Positions 5,928 to 17,935 of a stretch of DNA of 64,000 bases are shown one piece after another. Position 1 is the first letter of the stretch. Each line of letters starts with the position of its first letter. Made by a program: the position numbers and the translations under genes. The notes below the pieces were generated by a model that saw only the letters and a program-made list of their open reading frames with translations, was not told the origin of the DNA and ran no database searches. The DNA lies in the NCBI GenBank assembly GCA_015295835.1, contig DVEG01000003.1, positions 62,001 through 126,000 of the forward strand. The letters are read 5' to 3'. This stretch comes from Oscillatoriaceae cyanobacterium M7585_C2015_266 (GTDB taxonomy: Bacteria; Cyanobacteriota; Cyanobacteriia; Cyanobacteriales; Oscillatoriaceae).

Positions 5928-6651
5928 TCAAGTCAGATTAGTAGGATCGATTCCCATTTCCCGTAGTCGAGCTTCCAGTATTTGCAGGCGAGATTCTACT
6001 TGCTCGGCGTGTTGCCGCTCAGCAAGAGCGCGTTGCTCTGCCTCGACAGCCCGTTGCTCTGCCTCGACAGCCCGTTGCTCTAATTCTACAGGGGTTAAAA
6101 ACCGCATGCCATCGGGGCGATAGATGATAAGAGTGTCTGGAGTAAGTTCAAATCGGATGTTCAGTCGGGGACTTACCCACCCATTTATCTCTTCAATCAC
6201 TTCAAGTTCGGTGTTGCGACGAATCCAACCTGCTAAATCTATTTTTCCCGGATCATATAGGTAGTATTCCTCGACGCCATAGCGGTTGTAGAACTGCAAT
6301 TTTTTTGCCATTTCTGAGGAGCGGTTATTTGGGGATAAAATTTCAAACACTACCAGGGGGGGGGGAAATGTTGTTTTCTTCCCACTGTTTATAGGAGCCG
6401 CGTTTTCCTTTCGGTCGTCCGAAAGCTACCATAATGTCGGGAGCTTGACGGGTTTTATTGTCTCCTTGTATGGGATACCACAAGAGCTCACCTGCGACAA
6501 AAATATCGGGATTGGCAGCGAATATAATTTCTAAGTTTTCTTTAATAGTGACAATCCATTTAAATTTTTCAGTATTATCTGCCATTGGTTGCCCGTCACT
6601 TTCGGGGTAGATGATGTCTGAGGTTGCCTCCGCTTGCAGTTGCTGTACCAT
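5928..6651 (-). pseudogene. Uma2-family endonuclease, one frameshift in a poly-G tract
   Basis: Two overlapping frames together encode one full Uma2 (DUF820, PD-(D/E)XK-fold) protein. The upstream half starts at ATG 6651 and carries IFVAGELLWYP and APDIMVAFGRPKG with the catalytic-type Asp. The downstream half begins with FEILSPNNRSSEM and YNRYGVEEYYLYDP, followed by an Ala/Glu/Arg-rich tail (AVEAEQR repeats) that is probably a coiled coil. The join is a run of ten G at 6356-6365 (ten C on the coding strand). Nine would keep the frame (ISPPLVVFEI); ten gives a stop four codons later. The gene is otherwise intact, so this may be a recent mutation, a slippage switch or a sequencing error. Confidence 0.85.
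6031..6080. repeat. 21-bp tandem repeat inside the Uma2 tail
   Basis: The unit CGTTGCTCTGCCTCGACAGCC occurs at 6031-6051 and 6052-6072, with a partial third copy to 6080. It encodes the seven-residue repeat EQRAVEA on the minus strand. A seven-residue period suits a coiled coil, and repeat number may vary between strains. Confidence 0.9.
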
Positions 6652-8291: not shown

Positions 8292-8481
8292 AATAATAGG
8301 GCTGTAAACCTATGTTGGAAATGCTGGCTGAAAAATAGCTAGCTGGGTGCATCTAAAAGCTTGCAAAGACTCCAGTATAACTGAGTCTGCCGAGGTGGTT
8401 GCCAAGCAGGGGAACTGGAGTGTAGAAACATTGCCAGGGTTGGGGAAAACAAGTTAATTTTAATTTAAATTAATTTAAAAT
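8292..8481 (+). other. long 5' leader with stable inverted repeat
   Basis: This non-coding stretch before the PilB-like gene contains ACTCCAGT (8369-8376) and ACTGGAGT (8414-8421), a perfect 8-bp inverted repeat with a 37-base, GC-richer loop. The composition differs from the AT-rich flanks, which suggests a structured RNA element. It matches no riboswitch family that I recognise. Confidence 0.35.
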
Positions 8482-10617
8482 ATGGATGAACAGACTAAAA
8501 AGACTTTTAATGTAGGGCGGGATGTACCCAGAGACTACGATACAGATTCAGATTTAGTAGAGTATCTGAAAGAAAAGCGCCGCGAAAGCATAAATAGTAG
8601 CCAGTTAGAGGAAGGGGCAAAAGGAGAAGAGGAAGAGAGAGAGAGTGATTTATTTTCTGACATAGAGATAGAAAAAGATTGGTTTAGCGAAGAGCGATCG
8701 CTTTTAAACCAGCCTGAAACTACTGCGAGTGAATCCAAGGATAATAATATCAAACCAAAAAAACTTTTTTCTGTTTTTCCCCTAAACTTTGACTTTTTCC
8801 AGAGAAGAAAAGCGAACGAAAAATCGCGGCGGGAGCAACAAGAAGCGCCGGGAGACTATGCCACTGTTTCAGAGGTGGAAAAAGACGAAGGCGAAACAGA
8901 TATGGCGCCAATAGCAAACCGAATTATAGAGATAGGTATAAGCGAGGGAGCAGATGAAATATACTTCGAGCCGCAGGCAGACAGTTTTATAATTCGCATG
9001 AGAAAAGACGGAATACTGCAAGAACCGTTAACCGAATTGCCGGAACAAATAACTTCAGAGCTGCTATTATTTTTGAAAAAGTTAGCGGAATTAGACAGAG
9101 AGAAAAAACAGGTACCGCAACAAGGCAGATTCAGTCAAATTTTTCAAGGGCGAAACCGCGACTTTTTACTCAGTACCTTACCAAGCCGCTACGGAGAGCG
9201 GGCGATATTGAAGATTTTAGGTAATGCAGAAATTGAGGGAGGTTTGGAAAATTTTATCTCTGATTCAGAAACCCTGCACGTGATTAGGAAAATAATCGCC
9301 CGCCCATATGGAATGATTTTAATAGTAGGGCCATCAGAATCGGGGAAAACAACAACGATTGCAGCAGCATTAGCAGAGCGTGCTAATCCGGGCACTAATA
9401 TTTTTACAGTAGAAGAGCCGATAGAATATAATTTGCCTGGAGTAATACAAGTAGAAGTCAAAGCAAATCAGGGGATGGACTTTGCCGCCACATTGCAGTC
9501 GGTACTGCGGGAAAAATCGGCAGCAATTTTTGTGGGAGATATTGGCAACCGAGCAACTGCTCAAATGAGTGTAGAGGCAGCTTTTGGGCGCTTGGTAATA
9601 GCAAGTTTGCAAGCGCCGGATGCAGCGGGAGCGATCGCTCGTTTAAAAGCAATGGGAATAGAACAGGAACTAATTGCCAACGTTGTCATTGGGATTATCA
9701 ACCAGCGGCTAGTGCGGCGGCTGTGTAAAGAATGTTGTATTCCTTACCAGCCAACAGCAGAGGAATTAACAGCTTTTGGTTTGTTTTCCAATACGGCGCG
9801 GGATATTGGGTTTTCTACCGTATACAAAGCGGCAACTATTCCACTAAAAGAACGCTCAGAGGCGCAGCGCAACGGCAAACTTTGCCCGCACTGTCATGGT
9901 GTAGGCTATTCTGGGCGAATTGGAGTGTTTGAAGTAATGCCGATAACCGAATCATTAAAATCAGCGATCGCGCGCGGCAGTTTTGCAGAAGAAAGCAAAA
10001 AAATTGCTGTAGAAGAAGGGATGACAACCCTATTCGATTATAGCTTAGATTTAGTATTAAAGGGAGAGACATCTTTTGAAGAATTCGAGCGAGTGATATT
10101 AGCTGAATCTCCCTTATCTTACCAGCTTCGCTATTCACGAAAATTGCGCGAACAAATAAAAAGCCCGCAACAGCAACTTCAGGAAATAAAGAGTTTACGA
10201 CAACGACTAGAGGAAGTCGAGAAAGAAAAAGAAAATCTGATGAAAGCATTAGAGAGACAGAAAGCAGAAATCAAGGAACAGAGAACGCTCGAAGTGTTTC
10301 AAGAGTTGTTAAAGATTCTCGATAGTTTCGAGAAGGCGAAAGGGCAAATAAAACTGAAAACAGAACGAGAAATAGCCATTCACAAGGGTTATCAAGGGAT
10401 TTACCGACAATTGGAAATAGCATTAAAAAATATCGGGATTTCAGTGATAGAAGTAGAAGGGAAAAAATTTAATCCTGAGCTACACGAAATAGTCGAGCAA
10501 GAAGTTACAGAAAAATATGCTCCGGGAACAGCGATCGCAGAAATAAGGAGGGGATATGTATTAGGCGATCGCGTTTTACGCCGTGCGCAGATAAAAATAG
10601 CAACGCGGGAGGAATAG
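8482..10617 (+). CDS. PilB/GspE-like secretion ATPase fused to a C-terminal GrpE domain
   Basis: A 711-residue fusion. Residues 1-150 are charged and low-complexity. About 155-550 match the PilB/GspE ATPase of type IV pilus and type II secretion systems: the Walker A variant GPSESGKTTT starts at 283, and the zinc-type cysteines are C415/C418/C419 and CPHC at 468-471, followed by GYSGRIGVFEVM. Some key residues differ: the Walker B region reads VGDIGN (usually GEIRD) near 353, and the His-box histidine (usually THTND) is replaced in SLQAPDAAGAIARL. A coiled coil at about 565-605 leads into a GrpE-type end with FNPELHEIVEQEV, PGT and RRGYVLGDRVLRRA. GrpE is the nucleotide-exchange factor of DnaK. 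Weakened hydrolysis and a chaperone-linked role are inferences; the fusion itself is plain in one uninterrupted frame. Confidence 0.88.
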   Translation: MDEQTKKTFNVGRDVPRDYDTDSDLVEYLKEKRRESINSSQLEEGAKGEEEERESDLFSDIEIEKDWFSEERSLLNQPETTASESKDNNIKPKKLFSVFPLNFDFFQRRKANEKSRREQQEAPGDYATVSEVEKDEGETDMAPIANRIIEIGISEGADEIYFEPQADSFIIRMRKDGILQEPLTELPEQITSELLLFLKKLAELDREKKQVPQQGRFSQIFQGRNRDFLLSTLPSRYGERAILKILGNAEIEGGLENFISDSETLHVIRKIIARPYGMILIVGPSESGKTTTIAAALAERANPGTNIFTVEEPIEYNLPGVIQVEVKANQGMDFAATLQSVLREKSAAIFVGDIGNRATAQMSVEAAFGRLVIASLQAPDAAGAIARLKAMGIEQELIANVVIGIINQRLVRRLCKECCIPYQPTAEELTAFGLFSNTARDIGFSTVYKAATIPLKERSEAQRNGKLCPHCHGVGYSGRIGVFEVMPITESLKSAIARGSFAEESKKIAVEEGMTTLFDYSLDLVLKGETSFEEFERVILAESPLSYQLRYSRKLREQIKSPQQQLQEIKSLRQRLEEVEKEKENLMKALERQKAEIKEQRTLEVFQELLKILDSFEKAKGQIKLKTEREIAIHKGYQGIYRQLEIALKNIGISVIEVEGKKFNPELHEIVEQEVTEKYAPGTAIAEIRRGYVLGDRVLRRAQIKIATREE

Positions 10618-13971: not shown

Positions 13972-14333
13972 AAGTGGCAGCAGGAGAATTTTAATCTTAT
14001 ATTATATTATAGAGGCAATTTCTGTATCAATACTTTATCTTAGCAGCTTGCTTCTGCACTGTAAACAAAGCATGCAGCTTTTTTATTCTCCTTTTAGACA
14101 TATGAAAGGAGTTGTTAATATGATAATAATTCCATTAACACTTGCAGCAGGTGATACAAAAAGACTCAATATATAATTAAATATAGTAATTGGCTAAACA
14201 TGGCCACTATCTCCTTAGCCCAAGTTTACCGTGAGATTAACAATTGCTGATCAGATAGTAGCGATCGCAGCACGGCGTACTGGCGCTTTTATCACTAAAA
14301 CGTTCACTTAGGGTGTATTACTGGAGGTAAGTA
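13972..14333. other. divergent intergenic region
   Basis: About 360 bases, mostly AT-rich, between the divergent kinase and lysozyme-chimera genes. A HIP1-type GCGATCGC lies near 14263. The only clear signal is a strong ribosome-binding site (GGAGGT, 14323-14328) just before the ATG at 14334. No RNA gene or coding frame stands out. Confidence 0.4.
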
Positions 14334-15323
14334 ATGTACGTCAAAAAACAACTGAACAGATATGAAGGCGCCAGAGATTTTGACAAGGAGTTGATAAAGT
14401 TATGGGTACAGCAAAAGGCTCCTCACAAACGTCGCCCTTGTTGGGTAATAGCTAGGCAGTTTCAGACTTTTGTGAGAAAGCCCTTAGCACAAGTGACGGC
14501 AGAAGATGTCAGGGCATTTGCGCTCGCCCACAAAGCCCTGGGCATTCCCCCGGAGCAAGCGTTTAAAAGGCTATTGGCAGTAAAGTCTCTACTGACATTT
14601 GGCTATCGCCTAGGGGTATTGCCAATTAATATTCCAGAAGATCAGTGGCCGAAAATACGTCGCAAAAAACGTCTTGTTAAGAAAAATCTTCGGCTTTCTT
14701 TCGGGTTGGGTTTGGGATTAGGGCTGTGTATTTTTGGAATTGCAGCCAGCGCTCCGAAACTTTTCGCTAACGCACAAAATTCATCCAATTTTAAAATAGA
14801 AAACTGGCAAGAATCGATGATGTCAGCAGAAATGCGACAATTATACGCCCAGACAGAAGCTGCCCTTGAAAATGCCAATGTTAAAGCCTTTCTCGATACA
14901 ATCGCATGGGCGGAAGGCACAGCGGGAACCGATGGCTACCGCACTAAATATACAGGCTCAAAATTTACAGATTACAGTACACATCCTGAGCGTGTACAGT
15001 GTGCTATCTCGAACGGTAGGCAACTTTGTTCTAACGCCGCTGGCAGATATCAATTTTTAAAGTCAACTTATGAACGGATAGCGCAAAAACTAGGATTGCG
15101 CGATTTCAGCCCGCGCTCGCAAGATCTGGCAGCTGTCGAGTTAATTCGTGAACAAGACGCCCTCGAAGATATTCAAAAAGGAAATATCAAAACTGCCTTT
15201 AAAAAAGTATCTCCCATTTGGGCACACATTGAAGGAGCTGGCTACGGGCAACCTGAGTATTCTTTAGAAAAATTAGAGGAAGTATATTGGCAAGAGCGAA
15301 AAAAATATAATAGCCGCCGGTGA
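14334..15323 (+). CDS. chimera: recombinase-type SAM-like domain, membrane helix, GH104 (lambda R-type) lysozyme
   Basis: A 329-residue protein of three parts. Residues about 10-105 match the core-binding (SAM-like) domain at the N-terminus of XerC/XerD-type tyrosine recombinases, with FVRKPLAQVTAEDVRAFA and AFKRLLAVKSLLTFGYRLG. The catalytic recombinase domain is absent. A basic cluster (RRKKRLVKKN) precedes one hydrophobic helix (about 121-140), which predicts the N-terminus inside and the C-terminus in the periplasm. Residues about 182-320 match the phage lambda endolysin R family (GH104): IAWAEGT with probable catalytic E194, DYSTHP, SNAAGRYQFL, DFSPRSQD and GAGYGQPEYS. A good ribosome-binding site supports the start. 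The muramidase call is firm; why a DNA-recombinase domain is attached is unknown. Confidence 0.85.
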   Translation: MYVKKQLNRYEGARDFDKELIKLWVQQKAPHKRRPCWVIARQFQTFVRKPLAQVTAEDVRAFALAHKALGIPPEQAFKRLLAVKSLLTFGYRLGVLPINIPEDQWPKIRRKKRLVKKNLRLSFGLGLGLGLCIFGIAASAPKLFANAQNSSNFKIENWQESMMSAEMRQLYAQTEAALENANVKAFLDTIAWAEGTAGTDGYRTKYTGSKFTDYSTHPERVQCAISNGRQLCSNAAGRYQFLKSTYERIAQKLGLRDFSPRSQDLAAVELIREQDALEDIQKGNIKTAFKKVSPIWAHIEGAGYGQPEYSLEKLEEVYWQERKKYNSRR

Positions 15324-15404: not shown

Positions 15405-15806
15405 ATGTTACACAAGTATAAAATAGCTATTTTTTTATTTGTTTTAAATTGGGGAGCAAATTCAACAGCAATTGCCCAACAAGTTGATACGAAAACAAAT
15501 TGTAGTAGATATATTTATGCAGGGGCTACTTTAAACAGCGCCCATATTTTATCTACAAATGCCAATTTCAATAGAAATCCCATTACCATTATCGAAGCCA
15601 CAGGATCGAAATGGTTAGGACGGTTTTCTGACACGGATGAAGTGATAAGCGGGACAATATCAGGTTCGGATTTTTCCTTGCAAAGGAGTTTTAATAAACA
15701 AGTATGGAGAGGAACGTGTTACGGTGGATACAGTAGCGGAATTTCGGGACAAGTGAGCGATAGTAATGTGCCTTCCCTGTTGGGTTCGTTTACGATTTAT
15801 CCTTAA
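15405..15806 (+). CDS. secreted hypothetical protein
   Basis: A 133-residue protein with a clear signal peptide (hydrophobic core IAIFLFVLNW, likely cleavage after STAIAQ). The mature part has two cysteines (in TNCSRY and GTCYGG) that could form a disulfide, and alternating short strands (GSKWLGRF, ISGTISGSDFSLQRS, SGQVSDS) suggesting a small beta-sandwich or barrel. I recognise no family. It lies 81 bases after the lysozyme chimera on the same strand and may be a partner in the cell envelope. Confidence 0.65.
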   Translation: MLHKYKIAIFLFVLNWGANSTAIAQQVDTKTNCSRYIYAGATLNSAHILSTNANFNRNPITIIEATGSKWLGRFSDTDEVISGTISGSDFSLQRSFNKQVWRGTCYGGYSSGISGQVSDSNVPSLLGSFTIYP

Positions 15807-15834
15807 AATAATCATAGCAGCGAGAGCAAAATGA

Positions 15835-16884
15835 ATGAAAATTCACATATTACCGTTTACTATCCGCAAGCGTTTTGCCCTGAGGATAAGTCGCGGCACC
15901 ACTGCTTTTACTGAAAATATTTGGGTAAAAATAGAACACGAAGGGATTGAAGGATGGGGAGAAGCTTCTCCTTTTTCTACGGGAGGCACTTGCCAAACAA
16001 CCGCAACTATTCTTGCGGCTTTGAAGCAAATCGCGCCAGTTTTGGAAAAATTCCATCCATGCGAGCGCCAACAGATAGAGCAACTTTTGACAGAATCTAG
16101 AAATAACTTTCCTTCAGCAGCCCGCGCCGCCATTGATACCGCTTTGCATGACTGGTTGGGTAAAAAAGTTGGTTTGCCCCTGTGGCAGATGTGGGGGCTT
16201 AATCGCAGCCGCATCACCCCGACATCTCTCACAGTCGGTATCAATACACCAGAAGGCGCTAGAAAAAGGGTGAGGGATTGGGCACAAGTCACCGACGTGC
16301 AATTTTTGAAAGTAAAACTCGGTTCACCCGACGGTATAGAAGCCGATTGCGCTATGATGGAAGCGGTAATCGCCGAAGCACCTGCCAACACAAAATTTAG
16401 TGTAGATGCCAATGGGGGTTGGAATTTGGAAGATGCGGCGATGATGTGCCAGTGGCTAGGCGAGCGCGGTATTGTTTATGTAGAACAGCCCCTACCGCCG
16501 GGAGAGGAGGAATACTTACCAGCCCTAAAAGCGCGCTCGCCCGTTCCCATTTTTGTCGATGAAAGCTGCTTCACCAGTCACGATATTCCCTACTTAGCCG
16601 AGCGCGTCAGCGGTGTCAATATCAAACTGATGAAAGCCGGCGGTTTAAGCGAAGTTACCCGCATCATCCATACAGCCAGAGCCTGCGGGCTGTCGGTAAT
16701 GTTCGGCTGCTATTCTGATAGTTCTTTAGCGAATACTGCAATGGCTCAACTCGCCCCCTTAGCCGACTATTTAGATTTAGACAGCCACCTAAATCTATTA
16801 GATGATCCTTTCACCGGGGCTACTCTAGAGAATGGCTGTCTGCTGCCGAATGATTTACCAGGATTGGGGGTAATTAAAAATTAA
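15835..16884 (+). CDS. dgcA: dipeptide epimerase / N-acetyl-D-glutamate racemase (enolase superfamily)
   Basis: A 349-residue muconate-lactonizing-type enolase enzyme. The general bases are K159 and K161 in FLKVKLGS and the Lys of NIKLMKAGG. The metal ligands are the Asp of FSVDANGGWN, the Glu of YVEQPLP and the Asp of FVDES. Homologs are annotated L-Ala-D/L-Glu epimerase (peptidoglycan recycling). However, the gene 5 bases downstream is a DUF1611 protein, and this pair matches DgcA/DgcN, in which DgcN acetylates D-glutamate and DgcA racemises N-acetyl-D-glutamate to the L form. The enzyme class is certain; the choice between the two substrates rests on the neighbour. Confidence 0.85.
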   Translation: MKIHILPFTIRKRFALRISRGTTAFTENIWVKIEHEGIEGWGEASPFSTGGTCQTTATILAALKQIAPVLEKFHPCERQQIEQLLTESRNNFPSAARAAIDTALHDWLGKKVGLPLWQMWGLNRSRITPTSLTVGINTPEGARKRVRDWAQVTDVQFLKVKLGSPDGIEADCAMMEAVIAEAPANTKFSVDANGGWNLEDAAMMCQWLGERGIVYVEQPLPPGEEEYLPALKARSPVPIFVDESCFTSHDIPYLAERVSGVNIKLMKAGGLSEVTRIIHTARACGLSVMFGCYSDSSLANTAMAQLAPLADYLDLDSHLNLLDDPFTGATLENGCLLPNDLPGLGVIKN

Positions 16885-16888
16885 TTTT

Positions 16889-17935
16889 ATGCTTAAATCT
16901 CACCATCGAGTGGCTATTTTAATGCACGAGGGCATAAAAGGCACCTCAGGGAAAACCGGTTTGGCACTGCTGCGCTTCAGCGAAGCTTCGATAGTAGCAG
17001 TTATCGATCGCTACTGTGCTGGTGAATCATTGTCAGAATTAACCAAAATTCCCCGTCAGGTGCCGATTGTTGCTTCGGTACAGGAGGCATTGGCTTATAA
17101 TCCGAACGTTTTAGCAATCGGTATTGCGCCTTCGGGTGGAGCTCTACCGGCAGAGTGGCTGGCGGAAGTCAAACAAGCAGTGGCGGCTGGGCTGTCGGTG
17201 GCGAATGGCTTGCACACCCACCTATCGCAGGATGAGGAATTTCGGGAGTTGCTGAGGGAGGGGCAATGGATTTGGGATATACGCCGAGAGCCGTCTCGAC
17301 TAGCGATCGCTTCAGCCAAAGCCCGCGAACTTGCTTGCAAGCGCGTTTTAACTGTGGGTACTGATATGAGCGTGGGCAAGATGTCGGCTAGTATTGTTTT
17401 AAATCAGGCATCTCTGCAGCGCGGCTTGCGCTCTAAGTTCTTGGCAACCGGGCAAACTGGTTTGATGATTGCTGGGGATGGAATTGCTCTTGATGCGGTG
17501 CGGGTGGATTTTGCTGCTGGGGCGGTGGAACAAATGGTGATGCAGTTTGGAAGCAATCGCGACATTCTCCATATCGAAGGGCAAGGTTCTCTCCTGCACC
17601 CTGGTTCTACGGCAACCCTGCCGCTGCTGCGCGGCTCTCAACCGACTCACTTAGTGCTTGTACATAGAGCTGGTCAATCTCACATTCGCCACCATCCCCA
17701 CGTTCCGATTCCGCCCTTGCCGGCGGTGATTGAGCTTTACGAGGCGGTAGCGGCTGCTGCGGGGGCGCTTTATCCTGCACGAGTAGTGGCGATCGCTTTA
17801 AATACGCACCATCTAGAGGAAAGCGAAGCCCTCGATGCCATCACTCAAGTCCAAGCAGAAACCGGGCTACCCTGTACCGACGTCGTGCGTTTTGGCGGCG
17901 AGGAGATTTTAGAAGCTATTTTAGCCACTGACTAA
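16889..17935 (+). CDS. dgcN: DUF1611 protein, probable D-glutamate N-acetyltransferase
   Basis: A 348-residue DUF1611 protein starting 5 bases after the epimerase, so the two are almost surely co-translated. The N-terminal Rossmann-like part has VAILMHEG and VLAIGIAPSGG. The C-terminal part is a P-loop-like domain with VGTDMSVGKMSASI (near residue 156), then TGQTGLMIAGDG and HIEGQGSLLHPG. DgcN of marine bacteria, from the same family, acetylates D-glutamate as the first step of its breakdown. Older annotations call the family an ATPase or EBNA-1 nuclear protein-like, without evidence. Function here is inferred from family and operon. Confidence 0.78.
   Translation: MLKSHHRVAILMHEGIKGTSGKTGLALLRFSEASIVAVIDRYCAGESLSELTKIPRQVPIVASVQEALAYNPNVLAIGIAPSGGALPAEWLAEVKQAVAAGLSVANGLHTHLSQDEEFRELLREGQWIWDIRREPSRLAIASAKARELACKRVLTVGTDMSVGKMSASIVLNQASLQRGLRSKFLATGQTGLMIAGDGIALDAVRVDFAAGAVEQMVMQFGSNRDILHIEGQGSLLHPGSTATLPLLRGSQPTHLVLVHRAGQSHIRHHPHVPIPPLPAVIELYEAVAAAAGALYPARVVAIALNTHHLEESEALDAITQVQAETGLPCTDVVRFGGEEILEAILATD

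Follow-up and report, generated by a model that had tools for sequence, protein, structure and literature searches.

In the window, by which we mean the whole stretch of 64,000 nucleotides that was analyzed, a single chromosomal gene reads as a fusion of the core-binding (CB) domain of a tyrosine recombinase, a basic stretch, one hydrophobic helix and a GH104 lysozyme domain. Judged by its recurrence among genomes, this is a conserved gene of one group of filamentous cyanobacteria and no oddity of one assembly. The explanation we favor, with a probability of roughly 0.43, is that it encodes a domesticated, vertically kept, membrane-bound peptidoglycan-cutting enzyme whose CB domain would grip DNA and position the lysozyme. 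Bacteria must place wall cutting relative to their DNA, and usually do so through chains of indirect adaptors. If the favored explanation is true, a possible DNA binder inside the membrane and a wall cutter outside it would make a very short link from DNA to wall, built from two parts of selfish elements. The gene also illustrates domestication clearly, with the recombinase fold kept, the catalytic half lost, and the remainder held by selection across three families. The hosts include Microcoleus and Trichodesmium, filaments of ecological importance, and little is understood of how these divide and fragment. A search of the titles and abstract openings of open-licence PMC papers finds no description of this architecture, and in the same literature no paper treating glycoside hydrolase family 104 together with cyanobacteria.

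Layout of the gene

The earlier note had read one uninterrupted frame here and had named its parts in order, and it was right on both counts: the ATG-started frame has no inner stop, is preceded by a Shine-Dalgarno site, and carries the CB domain, basic stretch, membrane helix and GH104 domain in that order (Table 1). A GGAG/GAGG-type site stands before the aligned start in 10 of the 16 members compared, the window's included; among these 16 it is not found in five members from Okeania/Trichodesmium or in L053.

Table 1. Features of the fusion gene, in window positions, with the basis for each
Feature	Residues	Positions	Strand	Basis and remarks
Shine-Dalgarno site GGAGG		14323..14327	+	6 nt upstream of the ATG; read from the sequence
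Whole fusion gene	329 aa + stop	14334..15323	+	homologs align over the full length
Tyrosine-recombinase core-binding (CB, SAM-like) domain, four helices, catalytic half absent	13-96	14370..14621	+	Pfam matches of relatives, profiles, predicted fold
Basic stretch ahead of the membrane helix	97-120	14622..14693	+	the 20 residues preceding the helix sum to a charge of +7; low pLDDT from 114
Membrane helix or signal anchor	121-139	14694..14750	+	mean hydropathy 1.9 over 19 residues
Variable linker, predicted periplasmic	140-170	14751..14843	+	low pLDDT to 161; dN/dS over 97-179 is higher than in the other two parts
GH104 lysozyme / lytic transglycosylase domain	171-325	14844..15308	+	sequence and fold similarity to lambda R
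Glu194 codon	194	14913..14915	+	aligned with lambda R Glu19; invariant in 26/26 fusions
Cys223 to Cys232, possible disulfide	223-232	15000..15029	+	invariant in 26/26 fusions

The N-terminal domain

The earlier note called the N-terminal half a XerC/D-type SAM-like domain without its catalytic partner. Searched as a single sequence, this half has no NCBIfam match and only sub-cut-off Pfam matches to unrelated families, so the call could not be confirmed from that sequence alone. It is the relatives, the profiles and the predicted fold that bear it out. Five relatives' N-domains were scanned with Pfam, and 4 of the 5 match PF13495 (Phage_int_SAM_4) at E = 0.011 or better, three of them below the cut-off; L006 is above it at E = 5.1e-8 and also passes PF02899 (6e-5), and the N-domain of L005 has no Pfam match. 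hhalign joins 8 fusion N-domains to 3 full recombinases with a probability of 99.4 and E = 1.7e-21 over 89 columns, which together with the relatives' matches places the N-terminal half in the SAM-like family of integrases. When 40 genomes are searched with this half, the matches are the same fusion plus weaker ones in frames that are mostly of about 300 aa; two of the latter (L017 and L018) have by Pfam the PF00589 catalytic domain behind a SAM-like N-terminal domain.

A profile of the N-domain run with hmmsearch against PDB sequences gives a weak integrase match (5c6k, E = 0.16), so that a comparison of folds was needed. The AlphaFold2 model, made from 26 sequences, has four helices at 13-92 with pLDDT mostly about 90; overall its mean pLDDT is 75.6 and its pTM 0.52, with 114-161 poor and the lysozyme mostly confident. 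The predicted N-domain matches XerD (1a0p) with Z = 11.7 and an rmsd of 1.6 over 82 residues, XerA (5hxy) with Z = 11.6, and the isolated integrase N-domains 3nrw and 2kiw with Z = 10.3 and 10.0, scores at which (below about 13) helical bundles may by themselves reflect a common arrangement, and hence it is the sequence profiles that carry the call. Homology to the recombinases stops at the end of their core-binding domain, before the catalytic domain, and Pfam finds no PF00589 domain, with its R-H-R-Y residues, in the window protein. By profile and predicted fold, then, we identify the N-terminal part as a tyrosine-recombinase core-binding domain whose catalytic half is gone.

The lysozyme domain

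Phmmer aligns residues 181-314 to lambda lysozyme with E = 8e-28 for 3d3d and 8.6e-28 for 1am7, and the match to the endolysin family phrog_90 is at E = 3e-42. The modeled lysozyme matches 3d3d with Z = 18.2 over 146 residues, and Foldseek gives E = 3.2e-7 with TMt 0.79. The proposal of a GH104 lysozyme with E194 as its likely catalytic residue holds up well, since Glu194 aligns with lambda R Glu19, which we take to be the catalytic residue there, and wall cutting by this domain is likely on the strength of these matches. In phage lambda, R belongs to a lysis cassette and is a small, free protein. The fusion shares its fold and sequence family but differs in being chromosomal, in standing behind a membrane helix, and in having both a CB domain and a pair of cysteines.

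That pair, Cys223 and Cys232, is present in 16 of 16 chosen GH104 domains and absent from lambda R in the alignment. An invariant pair would suit an oxidizing compartment. In a wider set of GH104 proteins, a looser script scores it in 29 of 44, having also missed it in L015, for which the match coordinates are too short; it is missing in at least 14 of the 44, so we treat it as weak evidence for the periplasm. Some of the GH104 proteins without the pair carry a hydrophobic segment.

The linker and the predicted topology

The segment at 121-139 has a charge of +7 in the 20 residues before it and +1 in the 20 after. When the 26 fusions are aligned, the 19 consecutive residues of highest hydropathy between the two domains average 1.19 to 2.81; the 20 residues ahead of it carry +3 or more in 25 of the 26, and the 20 behind it range from -3 to +3. 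From this simple measure of hydropathy and flank charge we infer with good support that the N-domain is cytoplasmic and the lysozyme periplasmic, as had been predicted earlier. The orientation thus agrees with that prediction; whether the protein stays in one piece is a matter that the A-x-A triplet at residues 145-147, after the helix, keeps in play. A triplet of this kind, in the helix or no more than 12 residues after it, occurs in 6 of the 26 fusions, the window's among them, and is missing under the strict pattern in the other 20; looser small-x-small triplets in the same span occur in all 26.

Distribution and genomic setting

An earlier scan of contigs with the window protein alone returned no matches. 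A scan with the fusion alignment, using two patterns, gives 76 loci, which are no census of GH104 because both patterns come from the lysozyme part; several of these named loci are from the same genomes as some in our numbered set. The CB and GH104 domains are in one frame at 43 of the 76 and split over two frames at 2, and the remaining 31 have GH104 without CB. By the record names, the hosts are Microcoleus, Tychonema, Kamptonema, Oscillatoria, Laspinema, Lyngbya, Hydrocoleum, Okeania, Trichodesmium and several further cyanobacteria. A metagenome-assembled genome (MAG) labelled Richelia also carries the fusion, and groups with Microcoleus in the lysozyme tree.

Far from being confined to this assembly, the fusion is found in dozens of other genomes, and the profile and homolog searches with both halves show the architecture conserved in three families of cyanobacteria. 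All 8 genomes of the window's own family (f1) have it, as do 43 of 61 in family f2 (41 in one frame and 2 split) and 8 of 14 in family f9. Within f2, it is in 27 of 29 genomes of genus g5, 5 of 5 of g184 and 7 of 7 of g185 (including the 2 split), and is not found in the sister genera g55 (0/10) and g183 (0/2). This absence from some sister genera indicates that the gene is not generally required. In a sample drawn across the order, whose reading covered the recombinase-like matches that came with the loci, 13 of 120 genomes have the fusion, all of them in f1, f2 and f9.

In viral contigs there are 15 matching loci, and in each of them the match is confined to the lysozyme part. None of the 561 matching phage records covers 80% or more of the fusion query, and none of the 130 matching plasmid records covers 80% of it. 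The ten window neighbors that were scanned encode an aldehyde dehydrogenase, a PilB-GrpE protein, a protein kinase, an MR_MLE protein (DgcA-like), a DUF1611 protein (DgcN-like), QueA, a histidine kinase, a weak STN match below the cut-off, and two proteins without a family; no lysis gene, holin/spanin or phage gene is found among these ten. Earlier, a domesticated phage module had been suggested. Domestication fits a conserved chromosomal gene that has lost the catalytic half of its recombinase and is under purifying selection. The phage part of that suggestion does not fare as well, given the lack of a whole-length match in the phage records, the lysozyme-only viral loci and the absence of lysis genes from the scanned neighborhood.

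Some neighbor families recur within groups of loci, and no gene neighborhood common to all groups is found. Directly 3′ of the window gene, at 15405-17935 (+), are a 133-aa protein without a family and then the DgcA-like and DgcN-like genes, matching at 6.6e-61 and 2.2e-73, scores that in both cases fall short of the curated cut-offs. These two neighbors may point to muropeptide metabolism; the gene order with DgcA/DgcN is not common to the relatives compared.

The two split copies are in Trichodesmium MAGs, R02 (L097, near 8301-8311) and R04 (L098, near 6168-6178), and in both the fusion is divided in the linker into two overlapping frames at a place adjoining a run of A. A real break, an error of assembly or slippage could each account for the split.

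Selection and origin of the two halves

Pairwise dN/dS was computed for 42 fusions, made up of 38 of the 43 named one-frame copies, 3 others and the window's, using pairs with dS of 0.02-1, which are not independent of each other. The N-domain has a median of 0.29 (284 pairs), the linker 0.41 (282) and the lysozyme 0.14 (285). The N-domain is therefore preserved, though more loosely than the enzyme, and we read the CB domain as being under purifying selection. Some Okeania pairs have N-domain values of 0.9-2.0 at very low dS, and constraint on the N-domain may be relaxed in that genus.

To see what has been kept, we compare 26 fusions with 16 recombinase frames of at least 200 aa, leaving out duplicates and one 128-aa fragment; 15 of the 16 have the H-x-x-R-H motif, and two were checked with Pfam. 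W24, F43, S85 and L86 are identical in all 16 recombinases and all 26 fusions, and K84 is in 16 of 16 and 17 of 26. T32 (15/16 in recombinases), Y36 (15/16) and T75 (14/16) are mostly replaced in the fusions, Q33 goes from 12 of 16 to 6 of 26, and N99 from 16 of 16 to 6 of 26. Polar residues at such places presumably touch DNA in Cre and XerD. Over residues 14-96 the median net charge is +8 in the 26 fusions (-1 to +11), versus +3.5 in the 16 recombinases (0 to +7); among the fusion N-domains, one from Okeania is at -1, and one from Hydrocoleum and one from a Microcoleaceae MAG are at +3. The four-helix SAM-like domain thus has the profile and fold of XerD 1a0p, XerA 5hxy, 3nrw and 2kiw, and departs from the tyrosine recombinases in having no catalytic domain, mostly changed polar residues, more basic charge and a membrane helix joined to it. 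Our reading is of a folded domain that was kept while it would have lost the recombinase-typical contacts and gained a basic surface, or else found a new partner that is not DNA.

In the N-domain tree, 20 fusions fall on one side of a branch from the 16 recombinases with support of 98/95, and this fits a single capture of the CB domain. The lysozyme trees say less. In a careful tree built from 37 rows, the 20 lysozymes of the fusions all lie on one side of a branch, but its support is just 54/12. A quick tree of 101 rows separates the five of the window's group from the remaining 47, and one lineage may thus have exchanged its lysozyme half later on. A common origin of the lysozyme halves is compatible with these trees, which support it weakly and do not settle it.

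Parallel membrane-anchored fusions

In two other families, with one genome per family compared (G025 and G033), there are proteins (L015 and L016) in which a truncated IS6-type transposase is followed by a membrane helix and GH104. DNA binding by IS6 transposases lies in their N-terminal part. L015 and L016 are 40% identical, and their transposase parts match PF13610 above the cut-off at 3.6e-12 and 6e-11, with the match ending about mid-domain. Where all 21 of the cyanobacterial IS6-type transposases compared have the first Asp of the DDE triad, L015 and L016 have V. They resemble the window protein in that part of a dead mobile-element enzyme stands before a membrane helix and GH104, but their N-terminal part is unrelated to the CB domain and they are seen in 2 genomes only. 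Their lysozymes are far from the window's in the 101-row tree, where their long branch may be misplaced. Among the matches listed for the class sample of 291 genomes, where G025 and G033 themselves do not appear, transposases and lysozymes stand separately and no further transposase-GH104 fusion is found. A third arrangement is L116 of Leptolyngbya sp. Heron Island J, where a single frame encodes an AAA_35 ATPase domain (6e-36) ahead of a membrane helix and a GH104 domain. Across the CB, transposase and AAA_35 fusions, the plan of a cytoplasmic domain, a helix and GH104 recurs in cyanobacteria, and twice, by the domain matches, it was the DNA-handling section of some mobile element that was added.

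The architecture of L173 (G277) looks the same as that of L116. Other combinations include L181 (G248, 532-2415), a secreted-looking protein with a caspase domain (PF00656, 2.4e-37), GH104 and an M23 peptidase (2.4e-31), and L172 (G214), L182 (G124) and L096, in which GH104 and an M23 peptidase follow an N-terminal hydrophobic segment; L172 has a trypsin-like domain as well.

What the fusion may do

With the N-domain in the cytoplasm and the lysozyme in the periplasm, the enzyme would cut glycan strands next to the inner membrane, and the cytoplasm-facing N-domain would position or restrain it. The CB domain would grip DNA with more positive charge and without the usual contact pattern of a recombinase, so that the lysozyme would be concentrated at, or restrained to, the membrane beside the nucleoid. 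A plausible use is a localized opening of the wall in cross-wall formation or trichome separation. DNA is favored as the partner because a DNA-binding fold was captured, because it became more basic, and because the transposase fusions run parallel to it; set against this are the several recombinase-typical polar residues lost between the 16 recombinases and the 26 fusions, and the positive charge might instead help in contact with the membrane or in setting the topology. That the CB domain still grips DNA is plausible, with moderate support, and the comparison suggests that DNA helps to place wall cutting. The coupling to chromosome position or septum formation that the earlier note proposed is conjectural. 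A bolder version, that a chromosome-to-wall device was built at least twice from unrelated parts, the CB domain and the N-terminal part of an IS6 transposase, with the position of DNA dictating where peptidoglycan is opened, is tentative and on balance we doubt it.

The main rival to a DNA partner is a role as a protein scaffold. The CB domain would then have been exapted as a cytoplasmic knob for protein interaction, binding no DNA, which fixes the N-terminus inside and brings the lysozyme to a complex for division, pili or gliding. The replacement of T32, Q33, Y36, T75 and N99 while the core residues stay is what such a change would leave behind, and SpmX, whose muramidase we take to be of another lysozyme family, is a precedent. 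In Caulobacter and Asticcacaulis, SpmX is a membrane protein with a muramidase domain that is used for positioning, its muramidase being N-terminal, with a two-pass membrane domain at the other end and no recombinase domain (PMC4460556). Yet the positive charge of the fusion N-domains rose rather than faded, and part of an unrelated DNA-handling enzyme of a mobile element was captured in parallel, and we regard the scaffold as possible but rather unlikely. A different proposal starts from the hosts. Microcoleus, Trichodesmium, Hydrocoleum and Lyngbya belong to a clade described as separating its filaments by necridial cells (PMC3858816), and this overlap hints at a possible link to necridial trichome breakage. 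The lysozyme is of the lambda endolysin type, and it might be held back until a cell is sacrificed, then open its wall. As a self-lysis device, however, the enzyme evolves slowly (the lysozyme dN/dS of 0.14), and no holin, trigger or antagonist is recognized among the ten window neighbors scanned; we think this improbable.

Cleavage by signal peptidase would make the lysozyme a secreted enzyme, with the CB domain as a long leader or a separate membrane-bound piece. The A-x-A of the window protein and the looser triplets of all 26 fusions would allow it, but the strict triplet is missing in most of the fusions, the N-domain is under selection as a fold, and exported proteins typically have just a short part ahead of their signal, all of which leaves this reading with about one chance in ten at best in our estimation. 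A chance read-through or a decaying prophage remnant might be thought of from the mobile-element look of both halves and from the two named Trichodesmium copies that are split. It is contradicted by conservation over three families under purifying selection, the start signal precedes the N-domain, and the whole fusion is absent from every matching phage or plasmid record, so we consider it barely credible.

Minor observations

G003, a genome of the window's family, has five more short GH104 proteins, in frames of 200-214 aa on contigs C36, C38, C49, C53 and C73, each with an N-terminal hydrophobic segment. Elsewhere in the window, at 8482-10617 (+), a PilB/GspE-type secretion ATPase (PF00437, residues 140-537, 3e-74) and GrpE (PF01025, residues 555-707, 4.8e-33) are joined in one frame. 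A search of 25 genomes with an E threshold of 1e-60 matches this frame in 24, and the GrpE part is matched only in the window's own genome, which has a separate PilB-like gene on contig C8.
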